Source of the DNA: Halanaerobium saccharolyticum | GTDB taxonomy: Bacteria > Bacillota > Halanaerobiia > Halanaerobiales > Halanaerobiaceae | Direction: 5' to 3' | DNA length: 47,987 bases | Assembly (NCBI RefSeq): GCF_003053565.1 | Contig: NZ_QAXS01000026.1 | Coordinates: 1 to 47,987, forward strand | Shown: in pieces, positions 27,473 through 41,734 of the stretch | Position numbering within the stretch: the first letter of the stretch is position 1 | How the letters are laid out: the number at the start of each line of letters is the position of its first letter | Notes under the pieces: model-generated | What the model was told of the DNA's origin: nothing | Seen by the model: the letters and a program-made list of their open reading frames with translations, nothing else | The model's database searches: none | Made by a program: the position numbers and the translations under genes

Positions 27473-28300
27473 TTATCTATAGGTAACACTATCTAGATTG
27501 GCTTCATATAAAACATATTTATCAAAGTTATTTTCAATTTCCACAGTTATTGAAGCCGGCAGATTATAATTTTGATAATCTATATAATCATCATAATAAG
27601 CTTTGAGGCTAACTCTGTTTCCATCGAAATTAAATTCATCAGTCGTAATAGAAATTAATTTTCCCTGTTCATTAAAATCAAGAACATAATTAAGTTTTCC
27701 AGAAGTAGTATTCAACTCCAGAAGTGTCCGGTTATTGCTCATGTATCTATAATCTATACTGCCGCTTGCTAAATAATAATAAGGAAAATAAACTGCATCA
27801 ATAATCATCCGGCTCTTTAGAAAAGGTAGAGCACTCTGTCCGTAAACTTCCTGATTATTTTTAATTCCCATATATTTGAATTCATAAATCTGTTTATCTC
27901 CAATCGATACCTCTCGCAATTTATTAAAAGTAACCCGATTTTCATCAATAAACCACTCACTGACAAACTCCTCGTTTTTTAAATTGTAAAATGATTTGAC
28001 TTTAAAATCAAACATCTCACCATATTTATCCTTACGGTATTTGCCAGAATAATTGAGATTAACATAAGTTGATAAATTTCTGTGATCCGGAATACTGGCC
28101 TGAATATATCTTCTTAAGGAAGAAGGAATAGAAATACTATTTGGATTTGGAATCGAAAGATTATCACTGAGTGTATATCGTCTCTGCATAGAGCTGACAT
28201 CCTGCTCATACTGGCGGTCAAGATAGAGATTGGCCAATACTGTATATATTGAGAATGAAATTATTATTAAAAGTACTAGAATCAATATTTTTTTTAGCAA
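27473..28300 (-). CDS. Membrane-anchored protein, DUF6544/DUF6920-like
   Basis: A 275-residue protein with one N-terminal membrane segment (about residues 3-22, very Ile/Leu-rich) and a beta-rich extracytoplasmic domain. SIPSSLRRYIQASIP near residue 60 resembles the LPxPVxRYLR opening of the DUF6544/DUF6920 family. Later strands such as FNFDGNRVSLKAYYDDY fit the same fold. This assignment is from memory of the family pattern and is tentative. Start: the GTG at 28309 is part of the Shine-Dalgarno GAGGTG; TTG at 28300 has 8-nt spacing and was chosen. It is last in a run after HD-GYP and the 28.3 kb protein. Function is unknown. Confidence 0.6.
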   Translation of the reverse strand: MLKKILILVLLIIISFSIYTVLANLYLDRQYEQDVSSMQRRYTLSDNLSIPNPNSISIPSSLRRYIQASIPDHRNLSTYVNLNYSGKYRKDKYGEMFDFKVKSFYNLKNEEFVSEWFIDENRVTFNKLREVSIGDKQIYEFKYMGIKNNQEVYGQSALPFLKSRMIIDAVYFPYYYLASGSIDYRYMSNNRTLLELNTTSGKLNYVLDFNEQGKLISITTDEFNFDGNRVSLKAYYDDYIDYQNYNLPASITVEIENNFDKYVLYEANLDSVTYR

Positions 28301-28323
28301 GATAATCACCTCTATTTATTATT

Positions 28324-28944
28324 TTAGATAAAATAACAGATCTTTCTATTAACGGCTTTTAAACAGGCCTTTGCAATTGCTAAGGAAATATTATTATTTA
28401 CATGAACAGCTCCAACTAATTTTTCCTGTTTTAAATTGTTTTCGGGGTTATACATTGAAATTTCAGCAATTACCAGCTCCTCTTTGCCTTTGATCGTAAA
28501 AATATCATCAACAATAAGCTGCAGCTTAAAATCTAAATATTTATTTAAAATAGTTAAAACAGATCTTCCAATCAATTTTTCTATGCTTTCTCCAATTTGA
28601 GCTTCAAAACTTTCTTTGATTTCCTGCCCATTGATTTTCATTTCCACATTACAGCGGGAGCGATTATTTTCAGTATAAATTGAAACCAGTTCTATTCTTT
28701 CGCTGGAAAATGTGTCAGCAGCCTCTGCAAAATTACTGTCGATCCTGGCAATACTGATCTTTTTATGGTCTATTTTAAAATCTTTGTGCACCAGACAGAC
28801 TGTTTCAACATCTCTAACAATCCTTTTAGGATCTCTTTTCTTATCAGCTATAATGTGGATTTCGTCTATCTGATCTGCACCTGTTAAATTACAGGAGACT
28901 ACCCCTTCAAGTTCCTGAATCAATTTTTTTATTTCTGTATTCAT
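28324..28944 (-). CDS. Conserved hypothetical protein
   Basis: A 206-residue soluble protein. The N-terminal 65 residues (IQELEGVVSCNLTGAD, then DEIHIIADKKRDPKRIVRDVE, then DHKKISIARID) match a conserved pattern I recall from clostridial hypothetical proteins of the 'EIHVLA...PKQIVRDIE' type; no function is known to me. The second half is a beta/alpha domain ending AIAKACLKAVNRKICYF. It has no membrane segment. The start at 28944 is set by GGGGAG 9 nt upstream; the ATG at 28986 lies in the end of the HD-GYP gene and lacks such a site. It is co-transcribed with HD-GYP (31-nt gap) and the 27.5 kb gene. Confidence 0.65.
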   Translation of the reverse strand: MNTEIKKLIQELEGVVSCNLTGADQIDEIHIIADKKRDPKRIVRDVETVCLVHKDFKIDHKKISIARIDSNFAEAADTFSSERIELVSIYTENNRSRCNVEMKINGQEIKESFEAQIGESIEKLIGRSVLTILNKYLDFKLQLIVDDIFTIKGKEELVIAEISMYNPENNLKQEKLVGAVHVNNNISLAIAKACLKAVNRKICYFI

Positions 28945-28975: not shown

Positions 28976-30265
28976 TTAATATTCAAGCGACAACTCTAAT
29001 TTCCTGATTTTTTCTTCACTTTTAAATTTATCATCAAAATATCCATCTCTGATTAATTTAATCATTTTCTCGGCAATTTCCGGATCGAACTGTCCCCCGG
29101 CGCATTTTTTAAATTCCTCAATGATTTCTTCTTTGGTCATCGGCGGTTTATATGTTCTGCCGGTAATCATTACATCCAGTGAATCACAGGCCGTTAAAAT
29201 CCTGGCTCCTACCGGGATTTCTTTTCCTTTCAGACCTTCAGGGTATCCTCTACCGTCCCAGCGTTCATGGTGGTATTTAATTACATCTAATTCTTTATTC
29301 AAAATATCTATATCCTTTAAAAGTTGATATCCATATTCTGTATGTCTTTTAATTTCTTGATATTCCTGTTCGCTTAATTTATCTGAACTTCGCAAAATAT
29401 CATCGTCAACATAAATTTTACCTATGTCATGAATTTTAGCAACACTTATTATTTTTTCTGATTTAGCCCATGATAAATCCATTTCATCACATAGATGATA
29501 TGTATATTTAGCCACTCGTTCACAGTGACCTTCAGTATAATGGTCTTTTGAGTCAATTACTTTTAAGAAACTTTCGATTATTTGAGTATAGGAGTTCAGT
29601 TGTTGTAGTCGAGAATAGAAAAAATCTTTAATTATAAATAATAAAATTATTACAAGAGCAAATAATATCTTTCCAAAATAAAAATAAGAGGCTAATAAAA
29701 TAAGACCTACAAAATAAGATGTAATTAAATTTTTCGAAAGTTCTCTAAAATAACTAATTAATGAAAGATTATTTACATCATTTTCTGCAATCCTAATAAC
29801 TATATAAACTAAAGTGTTATTGATTATAAAATAAATAATACTTGCCAGTAAAATTGATAAAAAAGGGAAAGATCCACTATCTAAAAGTGGCCTTGCCAGT
29901 TTAAATGAAAATGCTCCAGAAGCTGCAGCTAAAAATAAAACAAATCTATTAAACAGAAACTTATACCAGACAAAGTTTCTTTTCAACAATCTAAATTCAA
30001 TTGAGCCAATTGCTGACAAAATAGCTGTCCAGAAGGGATTTAAAAACATAAAGCCAATAATTACTATGGGAAGATTCATAGAAGTATTAATTTCTGTTAA
30101 AGAATTAAAAAACATACTCATATTATTAACTACCAGTAAAGAAATAATTAAAAATATAATTTCACCCAAATTGAAATCTTTAATATATATAAATGCTAAA
30201 CTTAATCCAAGTGAGATAGTTATTATAAAAATAAAAGCAAGATAAATTTTTAGTTTTTTCTTCAT
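28976..30265 (-). CDS. Membrane HD-GYP domain protein (putative c-di-GMP phosphodiesterase)
   Basis: A 429-residue protein. Residues 1-215 hold about six hydrophobic segments (a MASE-like sensor module). A short coiled linker (about 215-235) leads to the HD-GYP domain. Metal and catalytic motifs are complete: EGHCERVAKYT (about 247), AKIHDIGKI (HD, about 277), KRHTEYGY (about 307), and YHHERWDGRGYPEGLKGKEIP (about 332 on, HHE plus GYP). ACDSLDVMITGRTYKPP follows. Such proteins hydrolyse c-di-GMP in response to membrane or external cues (family knowledge). A tiny secreted-type peptide gene lies 60 nt upstream in the same direction, so the membrane half might sense that peptide (inference). GAGGG before the ATG. 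Confidence 0.88.
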   Translation of the reverse strand: MKKKLKIYLAFIFIITISLGLSLAFIYIKDFNLGEIIFLIISLLVVNNMSMFFNSLTEINTSMNLPIVIIGFMFLNPFWTAILSAIGSIEFRLLKRNFVWYKFLFNRFVLFLAAASGAFSFKLARPLLDSGSFPFLSILLASIIYFIINNTLVYIVIRIAENDVNNLSLISYFRELSKNLITSYFVGLILLASYFYFGKILFALVIILLFIIKDFFYSRLQQLNSYTQIIESFLKVIDSKDHYTEGHCERVAKYTYHLCDEMDLSWAKSEKIISVAKIHDIGKIYVDDDILRSSDKLSEQEYQEIKRHTEYGYQLLKDIDILNKELDVIKYHHERWDGRGYPEGLKGKEIPVGARILTACDSLDVMITGRTYKPPMTKEEIIEEFKKCAGGQFDPEIAEKMIKLIRDGYFDDKFKSEEKIRKLELSLEY

Positions 30266-30325
30266 TATGAACCCTCACATTCTTTTTAAATATCCGGCAG
30301 CAGAATAAAAATTTTAACCACTATT

Positions 30326-30415
30326 TTATCTCCAGTGACTGGTTTCAGCTAATACAGAAATAGCTGTACCAAATGTAATTAAAGCTGTTGTGATAGCAAC
30401 ATAAAACTTTTTCAT
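30326..30415 (-). CDS. 29-residue secreted-type peptide precursor
   Basis: A small frame with ATG: charged MKKFY, a hydrophobic core VAITTALITFGTAISV, then LA-ETSHWR and a stop. This is a textbook signal peptide with a likely cleavage after VLA, which would release only six residues, ETSHWR. GAAGGGAG lies 9-10 nt before the ATG. It precedes the membrane HD-GYP gene by 60 nt on the same strand. No AgrB-like processing enzyme or ABC exporter is nearby. Candidates are a peptide signal or a small envelope peptide; I know no family. Confidence 0.55.
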   Translation of the reverse strand: MKKFYVAITTALITFGTAISVLAETSHWR

Positions 30416-30428
30416 TAAGATTCAGCTC

Positions 30429-30465
30429 CCTTCGTTATTTGTATTTCTAAGCTCATTTACGAAGG
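30429..30465 (-). promoter_or_regulatory. Hairpin hiding the ribosome binding site of the peptide gene
   Basis: CCTTCGT (minus strand, 30465-30459) is the exact complement of ACGAAGG (30435-30429), which includes the Shine-Dalgarno sequence of the 29-residue peptide. The 23-nt loop is A-rich. The leader upstream runs about 190 nt to a TATAAT at about 30610, long enough for a riboswitch-like or protein-controlled switch. I could not match it to c-di-GMP-I or -II riboswitch motifs. Confidence 0.45.
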
Positions 30466-30632
30466 TAAGCTCGGCTCATTTTATTTAAGCTAGTCTCTCT
30501 CTGCTGCCAGATTACTCTTTAATATAATTCAATATTATTGGCAGAAGTCCTCTTTTTTAGAGCAAAAAAAGTGCTTTAATAGCTTTATTAATAAGGATTA
30601 CCATTAATTTTTATAATATTATAGTATATTCC

Positions 30633-30665
30633 AAAAGAAAAAGTCCTGAGAAAAATTCTCAGAAC
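30633..30665 (-). terminator. Terminator of fumC
   Basis: On the minus strand GTTCTGAGAA and TTCTCAGGAC form a 10-bp stem with a 3-nt loop, followed by TTTTTCTTTT. It lies about 100 nt after the fumC stop. Confidence 0.9.
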
Positions 30666-30761
30666 CTATCAGCTTACTACTTTTATTTTAATAAAAATTA
30701 CTAATTCAGCGCGGGTTACATATTTCGACATAAATCGGGTGGTTCACGGTGCGTGTACGTT

Positions 30762-40678: not shown

Positions 40679-41734
40679 TTAAACAATCACCTTAGTAATT
40701 ACAATATTCATGTGCTTTAAAAGATCCAGTTCCTTATCCAGCTCATTACCTTCATCATCTTCGATTAATCTGAGAACCGGTCTGGTCGGAAACCCTACAT
40801 TCTGAGTTCTGACTACCGCCCGATGCCCACTGCTTAAAATCACTTCCGAACCATTGGGATAAAAAGAAACCTGAGGCAAAAACTTTTTAACCAGTTGATA
40901 ATCAAAGAGCTGTTCTGTATGGTTCATAATATACTCAGCTGCTTTATAGGTCGGCCATCTATCTCTGTAAACTCGATCACTGGTTAAGGCATCAAAAACA
41001 TCAGCAATAGCAGCTACCCGGGCAAATTCGTGGATCTCATCACCTTTAAGCCCTCTAGGGTAGCCGGAACCGTCAACCCGCTCGTGATGTGAGTAAACAA
41101 CTATTCTTGACAGGGGACTAATTGACTCAATCTGCTGCAGGTAGTTAAATCCTAACTCCGGATGATTTTTTATTATTTCAAACTCATGATCTGTTAATTT
41201 AGCCGGCTTGTTTAAAATTTCCTCAGGAATAAGAGTCTTACCAATATCATGCAGCATCCCTCCCATTCCAAGTTTAAAAAGCTCACTTTTACTGTAACCG
41301 AGCATTTTACCGAGGGCTATACAGACCACACTAACATTTACTGAATGCTCATAAGTATAATCACTGGTGCTTTTTAGACTTACTAGATTTAATAAAACAT
41401 CCTCATTTAGAACCAGCTCATCAGTAATATCTTCAACAACATTCTTTAAGTCATTAGTATTTAAATCTATAAAACCATTTTTGATCCTGTCAAAGGTATT
41501 GGTAACTATTTTCTTTCCGGTGCGCCTGGTGCTGTCTTTAATTGCATCATTGATTTCAATATCATATGAATACCTATCTTCAATGTAAAGATGTTTTATC
41601 CCCAGCTCTAGCAGCTTACTTTTATATTTATATAAATTATTAACACCTTTATTTAGTAGTATATTTCCATTTTCATAAATTGGTTTGGCTAATTCCATAT
41701 CTTCTTTTAGATTTTCTGTTAAGACTAAGCGCAT
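40679..41734 (-). CDS. Cytoplasmic HD-GYP domain protein (putative c-di-GMP phosphodiesterase)
   Basis: A 351-residue soluble protein. The N-terminal 100 residues (LTENLKEDMELAKPIYENG...) match the DUF3391-like lead found before many HD-GYP domains. The HD-GYP core is complete: YEHSVNVSVVCIALG (about residue 129), GMLHDIGKTLIP (HD, about 160), KNHPELGFNYL (about 188), and YSHHERVDGSGYPRGLKGDEI (about 214 on). IADVFDALTSDRVYRDR follows. The C-terminal small beta domain has GHRAVVRTQNVGFPTRP. It is a single-gene unit with its own terminator, so unlike the membrane HD-GYP at 29-30 kb it probably senses a cytoplasmic cue. Confidence 0.88.
   Translation of the reverse strand: MRLVLTENLKEDMELAKPIYENGNILLNKGVNNLYKYKSKLLELGIKHLYIEDRYSYDIEINDAIKDSTRRTGKKIVTNTFDRIKNGFIDLNTNDLKNVVEDITDELVLNEDVLLNLVSLKSTSDYTYEHSVNVSVVCIALGKMLGYSKSELFKLGMGGMLHDIGKTLIPEEILNKPAKLTDHEFEIIKNHPELGFNYLQQIESISPLSRIVVYSHHERVDGSGYPRGLKGDEIHEFARVAAIADVFDALTSDRVYRDRWPTYKAAEYIMNHTEQLFDYQLVKKFLPQVSFYPNGSEVILSSGHRAVVRTQNVGFPTRPVLRLIEDDEGNELDKELDLLKHMNIVITKVIV

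Follow-up and report, generated by a model that had tools for sequence, protein, structure and literature searches.

A small peptide gene paired across a bacterial phylum with membrane HD-GYP proteins of MASE9-related sensor type: a candidate signal for c-di-GMP hydrolysis

Background

To our knowledge, many enzymes of c-di-GMP metabolism carry sensor domains without a known ligand. A 2022 review (PMC8846402) names two directly evidenced receptors of quorum signals within c-di-GMP networks, one for a fatty acid and one for AI-2, and none for a peptide. The same source describes in BDSF-RpfR a quorum signal that acts directly on a c-di-GMP-degrading enzyme, as in the circuit considered here; the signal there is, however, a fatty acid and not a gene-encoded peptide, it is perceived by a PAS domain and not by a multi-span membrane domain, and the system is proteobacterial.

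Gene arrangements closer to that of our locus are found in peptide signalling. The agr and comQXPA systems comprise a small precursor beside a multi-span receptor, with polymorphic tail and sensor and a conserved output, as seen here; that output is a histidine kinase, whereas here it is an HD-GYP domain. The criteria for agr itself are not met, since the precursor contains no Cys and neither AgrB nor a kinase was recognised among the ten proteins scanned in the window (the whole stretch of DNA analysed, 47,987 nucleotides of contig C26 of the 3.2 Mb genome of Halanaerobium saccharolyticum). The RRNPP systems (Phr, PapR, SHP/Rgg) resemble the locus in their short exported linear precursors adjoining a receptor gene, but their receptors are cytoplasmic, while the partner here is a membrane HD-GYP enzyme; membership in RRNPP, which calls for a cytoplasmic helical-repeat receptor, was therefore rejected.

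On the side of the sensor, the closest described domain is MASE9 (PF20972): relatives of the window sensor match it and its Pfam model leads to peptide-paired loci, although the window's own domain falls under the cut-off. ECF S-components differ in that the window sensor is fused to an HD-GYP output. No description of a MASE9 ligand was found in the literature searched, in which "MASE9" occurs in one unrelated paper, and none of the matches listed in the open literature deals with a peptide that partners either an HD-GYP or a MASE9 protein; an earlier mention in a survey of HD-GYP proteins is not excluded. The original prediction for this locus had known of no described system of such a form, and the literature searched yielded none either. 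We regard the system as new in kind, since no known peptide system combines a precursor, a sensor and an output of these sorts; the logic of pheromone plus receptor is in general already known.

Results and discussion

Organization of the locus

Read along the minus strand, a fumarase gene is followed by a terminator-like hairpin, a leader, the 29-codon frame, the HD-GYP gene and a gene designated here X (Table 1). The frame had originally been described as encoding 29 residues, with a ribosome site of its own and 60 nt ahead of the HD-GYP gene; this is exact, the gap measuring 60 nt and GGGAG standing 10 nt upstream of the peptide ATG. A gene for a DUF6544 protein lies directly downstream of gene X (27473-28309, minus), and the window holds a second HD_5 gene (40679-41734, minus).

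Table 1. Features of the peptide/HD-GYP locus (positions in the window)
Feature	Position	Strand	Basis or remark
Terminator-like hairpin	30641-30667	-	between fumarase gene and conserved leader
Conserved leader with three AGCTTA-like repeats and the hairpin inside; without Rfam family	30424..30495	-	
RNA hairpin, CCTTCGT x ribosome site ACGAAGG plus outer AGCY/RGCT helix	30424..30471	-	covariation
Gene of the 29-aa peptide precursor MKKFYVAITTALITFGTAISVLAETSHWR	30326..30415	-	open frame, homologues, pairing
Codons 1-23, hydrophobic signal-sequence-like leader with VLA at its end	30347..30415	-	sequence; little variation in 9 members of the genus
Codons 24-29, tail ETSHWR, variable apart from the fixed Trp; inferred ligand	30329..30346	-	tail variability and coevolution
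Membrane HD-GYP protein, 429 aa	28976..30265	-	frame, HD_5 match, predicted structure
Multi-span sensor domain, residues 1-216; divergent MASE9 relative with S-component-like predicted fold	29618..30265	-	
HD_5 / HD-GYP catalytic-type domain with HDIGK and HHERWDGRGYP	29075..29563	-	
Gene X, conserved neighbour	28324..28944	-	frame open to 28986; ATG start at 28944 is our choice

The HD-GYP protein and its sensor domain

The window protein matches HD_5 with 107.3 bits against a cut-off of 27.2 and retains the HD...HHE...GYP signature, and the corresponding part of its predicted structure aligns to HD-GYP enzymes (4mcw, Z 20.2). By domain, signature and predicted fold it meets the description of an HD-GYP phosphodiesterase, with c-di-GMP hydrolysis itself remaining an inference. 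The genome as a whole contains 27 GGDEF and 19 HD_5 matches.

Against MASE9 the window sensor scores 14.9 bits (E 0.026) where the gathering cut-off is 24.3, and it is therefore regarded as a divergent relative and not as a member; among 25 of its relatives, seven match MASE9 at E<=1, the best with E 7.6e-14, and one matches ECF-ribofla_trS (E 0.0097). An AlphaFold model built from 15 sequences reached a mean pLDDT of 78 and a pTM of 0.54, most of the membrane part lying at 82-97. In this model residues 27-200 superimpose on the ECF S-component 4hzu_S (Z 12.9, rmsd 3.4, 155 residues), and several other S-components match the fold at Z about 10-12. Helical bundles can often reach Z values up to about 13, and the similarity is no proof; the joint appearance of many S-components is nonetheless suggestive. 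Comparison of the sensor profile with the sequences of the PDB gave nothing significant (one weak match, E 0.15). Hydropathy and the helices of the model contradict each other, and we claim no topology. In an AlphaFold read-through pseudo-fusion the peptide obtained pLDDT values of only 27-48 and no confident pose, so that docking is neither supported nor excluded.

The peptide is conserved and its tail is variable

Searched against 101 relatives, the peptide matched in 27 at E<=10, and in 22 of these the match is a homologue of 28-29 aa with start and stop like those of the window. Within the genus these homologues are 79-90% identical to the window peptide, compared with only 52-62% for the sensor domain (complete matches), and their codons show synonymous changes with the residues kept. 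The original prediction was to be abandoned if the small frame proved not to be conserved upstream of orthologous HD-GYP genes; it is conserved.

The amino-acid composition of the precursor (a basic start, a hydrophobic core and an Ala before the tail) leads us to infer a signal peptide, without support from a dedicated predictor; the V-L-A or A-L-A preceding the tail resembles a signal peptidase site. The leader is nearly fixed among nine members of the genus and its core varies freely between families. A conserved tail had also been anticipated, and this holds for the Trp only: otherwise it is in the tail that the most variable positions within a genus lie. In the window's genus the entropy is highest at peptide positions 27 and 29 (1.9 and 1.5 bits), followed by leader position 4 (1.4), and in another class, that of genome G428 (perhaps Thermoanaerobacteria), it peaks beside the fixed Trp (1.9, 2.6 and 1.8 bits) and does not exceed 1.3 in the leader. 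Such variability is as would be expected of a specificity element. Some peptides lack Trp (L109, L113, L172, L178), and the gap to the next gene ranges from 13 to 103 nt among relatives.

No Pfam or NCBIfam family exceeded its curated cut-off with the window peptide and six relatives, and the matches obtained were weak (e.g. pheromone_ipd, 14.3 of 33 bits); a search for copies on plasmids gave no match. Frames of 24-29 codons fall below the common length limits of gene finders, which is probably why these genes have been overlooked.

The peptide accompanies one type of sensor across the phylum

A profile of the sensor domain matched 34 places in 31 of the 59 genomes of the window's own class, 30 of which are informative, the other four being cut at contig ends (G003:C88, G016:C37, G032:C188, G026:C235). 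By inspection, the peptide precedes 27 of the 30, in 20 cases in a close and in seven in a diverged form (six ending in GGD-S/T-x-Q-F/W and the like, and one in G042); the remaining loci are L051, with a remnant-like frame of 13 aa, and L118 and L119, second copies without peptide. The 28 genomes of the class that lack the sensor contain no peptide match at E<1e-5, the best (2.7e-4) lying inside a frame of 403 aa. The sensor relatives to which a name could be attached, 14 in number, comprise seven from Halanaerobium, six from metagenome-assembled genomes of Halanaerobiales/Halanaerobiaceae and one from Candidatus Frackibacter.

In the phylum at large, the Firmicutes, the same profile matched 15 of 398 genomes at E<=1e-15, and each of the nine matches outside the window's class is preceded by a short hydrophobic frame (L109 and L113 being the two without Trp). 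Within the G428 class the sensor is present in 22 of 37 genomes and the peptide, by inspection, at 22/22 loci; within the class of G327 the figures are 9 of 17 genomes and 9/9 loci. The least biased test of the pairing is provided by the Pfam MASE9 model used alone, which found 30 loci in 30 of the 398 phylum genomes, six of them shared with the other sets (L167, L170, L177, L180, L187, L188). Here 28 of the 29 informative loci (L191 begins at a contig end) were judged to have the peptide, 27 clearly and one, L190, in a diverged form, and most of these peptides possess LAGGA and a short tail; the exception, L194, has GGDEF in place of HD-GYP. Beyond the window's phylum, the Pfam MASE9 model also has matches in Thermotoga maritima and Thermus composti.

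These counts by eye are softer than those of a mechanical rule, which found a peptide frame at 20/26 loci of the own class (applied without L057, L118, L119 and a partial gene at G016:C109), 22/22 of the G428 class, 7/9 of the G327 class and 24/29 of the MASE9 set, the last figure including L194, which we judge spurious. On shuffled sequences the rule fired in 12/1040, 11/880, 8/360 and 12/1160 cases, respectively, and in 1/680 for a control of other HD_5 genes, among which no frame was found at any of 17 in the window's order; the control consisted of 30 HD_5 loci from four genomes, less the paired gene itself (L218) and 12 loci too near the locus end. Thirteen sensor loci were missed by the rule: 12 have, by eye, peptides that are Trp-less, longer, overlapping or diverged, and the other is L051.

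In G038 (Candidatus Frackibacter) a second sensor/HD-GYP gene without a peptide of its own stands in tandem about 2.4 kb away (L118; L131:560-1855), and this copy may listen to its neighbour's peptide. The second copy in G012 (L119), likewise without an adjoining peptide, combines the same type of sensor with a histidine-kinase-like output.

Tail and sensor vary together

In each of three genera, identity is lower in the sensor than in the HD-GYP domain of the same protein: 59 vs 74% in the window's genus (9 genomes, 36/36 pairs), 79 vs 92% in g213 (n=9, 36/36 pairs) and 67 vs 97% in g110 (n=8, 28/28 pairs). L136, without a full-length HD-GYP frame, was excluded from these and the following sets, near-identical rows were left out of the alignments (A1, A2, A8), and the difference was not compared with that in other membrane HD-GYP proteins. 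The HD-GYP domain and the leader of the peptide served as internal controls. With the HD-GYP distance held fixed (partial Mantel), the distance between tails correlates with that between sensors in g213 (r 0.57, p 0.0016), g110 (r 0.89, p 0.0006) and the window's genus (r 0.74, p 0.0002). The leader DNA does not track the sensor under the same condition (-0.25, -0.08 and 0.12, in the same order) and correlates with the HD-GYP domain when the sensor is fixed (0.68, 0.81 and 0.37); gene X follows the HD-GYP domain with r 0.98 in g213 and 0.97 in g110, the two genera for which this was calculated. When the G428 class is taken as a whole (20 sequences), tail and sensor show a weaker partial correlation (0.23, p 0.012), and none of the statistics carries a full phylogenetic correction.

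Individual pairs make the pattern visible. L144 and L148 agree in X (98%), leader DNA (100%) and HD-GYP domain (98%), whereas their sensors are 57% identical and their tails read LQWN and YTWG. Among the g110 pairs with X at least 97% identical, the two with the same tail have sensors 93 and 95% alike, and the seven with different tails 57-69%. A counterexample is provided by L148 and L151, both with the tail YTWG, whose sensors are only 77% alike. Since tail and sensor differ where X, leader and HD-GYP domain agree, the stretch from tail to sensor appears to have been replaced or diversified as a unit, as has happened in the agr and comQXPA pheromone loci. Judged from sequence, this is the pherotype pattern of a pheromone and its receptor, and coevolution of specificity tail and sensor, a criterion of peptide pheromones, is met in the three genera.

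A covarying hairpin precedes the peptide, and gene X accompanies the pair

In an alignment of 19 of 22 leaders (A8), 92.3% of the cells of the hairpin are paired and three pairs are changed on both sides, compared with 33-58% when the pairing is slid. The window leader alone folds mildly better than its shuffles (z -1.46, 17/200 as good), and comparable pairing (CCTGAA x TTCAGG) is seen by eye in the G428 class. The hairpin covers the ribosome site, and translation of the peptide therefore seems to be regulated. Around it stand the three AGCTTA-like repeats, nearly invariant within the window's taxonomic order (leaders L001-L022); they could be the binding site of a regulator or part of an alternative fold. 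No credible Rfam match was found (four at chance level for the window leader, none up to E 0.5 for 15 loci), and a search for sigma-70 promoters, with 13 found against 13.9 expected, could not be separated from chance.

A profile of gene X, which is about 207-220 aa long among relatives, matched at 28/29 of the own-class loci given, 20/22 of the G428 class, 9/9 of the G327 class and 27/30 of the MASE9 set; in the control it matched at 1/30 HD_5 loci, namely L218. In the window's order the gene follows the HD-GYP gene; in other classes it precedes the peptide (e.g. L134-L149). No Pfam or NCBIfam family scored over its cut-off (the window copy reaches E 0.19 with LeuA_dimer), and comparison with solved structures revealed no credible relative (one match, E 0.73).

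A putative circuit and its alternatives

The original prediction of a circuit from peptide to c-di-GMP emerges as the likeliest reading, supported without being proved by the pairing over the phylum, the coevolution of tail and sensor, the signature residues and the wealth of GGDEF proteins. We consider it rather probable that the exported tail is the ligand of the divergent MASE9, S-component-like sensor and thereby sets c-di-GMP hydrolysis. The precursor would enter the membrane via its signal sequence, and the tail (here ETSHWR), probably once cleavage has occurred behind VLA, would be displayed on the outside or set free there. It would then bind, as a specific ligand, to the multi-span sensor of the HD-GYP protein encoded alongside, and its binding would change c-di-GMP hydrolysis by the cytoplasmic HD-GYP domain; activation is a guess that draws on the BDSF-RpfR case. 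Were the tail released to other cells, it would be a quorum signal with species-specific pherotypes. Each of these steps is inferred. The reading is weakened by the absence of a confident docking and of any data on export or binding, by the modest correlation over the G428 class, by the mismatch of L148 and L151, by the lack of a peptide at L118, L119 and L194, and by the remnant-like frame of L051.

The main rival, only weakly separated from a released pheromone, is an uncleaved peptide that is never released and functions as a small membrane subunit, its tail regulating the HD-GYP protein of the same cell. Such a subunit would also fit a leader that, within the genus, is conserved beyond the needs of a plain signal sequence; coevolution of tail and sensor would be expected here too, and the scan of ten window proteins recognised neither a processing enzyme nor an exporter. 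We regard this as unlikely, though by no means negligible, given the putative signal peptidase site before the tail and the freedom of the leader core to vary between families. A good deal less credible is the possibility that tail and sensor covary merely as neighbours in one exchanged block of DNA, the peptide having a different role. Tail, gap and sensor gene are indeed contiguous, the signal is strongest in the mosaic-looking g110, and recombination blocks shared through adjacency could by themselves produce part of the correlation; yet the signal recurs in three separate genera, the leader, encoded by the peptide gene just as the tail is, does not follow the sensor, and the pairing is kept over the phylum.

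The remaining explanations concern the nature of the frame itself. As a regulatory leader peptide it would sense tryptophan or translation and attenuate the HD-GYP gene, for which a Trp codon near the stop, a small upstream frame and structured RNA before it could be adduced; the existence of Trp-less peptides, the variable gap to the next gene, the tail that tracks the sensor and the position of the covarying hairpin before and not after the frame make this very improbable. Still harder to uphold is a type I toxin or bacteriocin whose location next to the HD-GYP gene is merely secondary. In size, in hydrophobicity and in its covered ribosome site the gene does resemble those of type I toxins, but throughout the phylum the peptide goes with a single sensor domain, which its tail tracks, and no close copy was found in own-class genomes without the sensor. 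Short frames are common (76 of at least 25 aa over 11 kb), which speaks for a chance open frame; homologues in 22 relatives, synonymous variation and a pairing far above shuffles and control leave it hardly any room.

Implications

Returning to the reading in which the exported tail is the sensor's ligand, a broader version of it would define a phylum-wide class of quorum sensing, in which exported oligopeptides serve MASE9-type sensors as dedicated ligands and thus directly set the breakdown of c-di-GMP, with species-specific pherotypes that are exchanged as tail-plus-sensor cassettes, and with GGAxxxW as the ligand type in many lineages and D/E-S/T-S/T-x-W in Halanaerobiales; taken together with these ligand types, it seems to us evenly poised between right and wrong. 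If true, MASE9 would gain its first ligand, and a c-di-GMP enzyme would for the first time be seen to sense a peptide pheromone directly, in both cases as far as the literature searched goes. For one family of sensors, the likely ligand is thus indicated by the genome, which also provides natural variants suited to work on tail swaps and cross-talk. The system, if confirmed, would make orthogonal, peptide-operated switches of c-di-GMP available for anaerobes, halophilic ones among them. A tail that varies with its sensor domain hints at a signalling language of bacteria that has so far gone undescribed.
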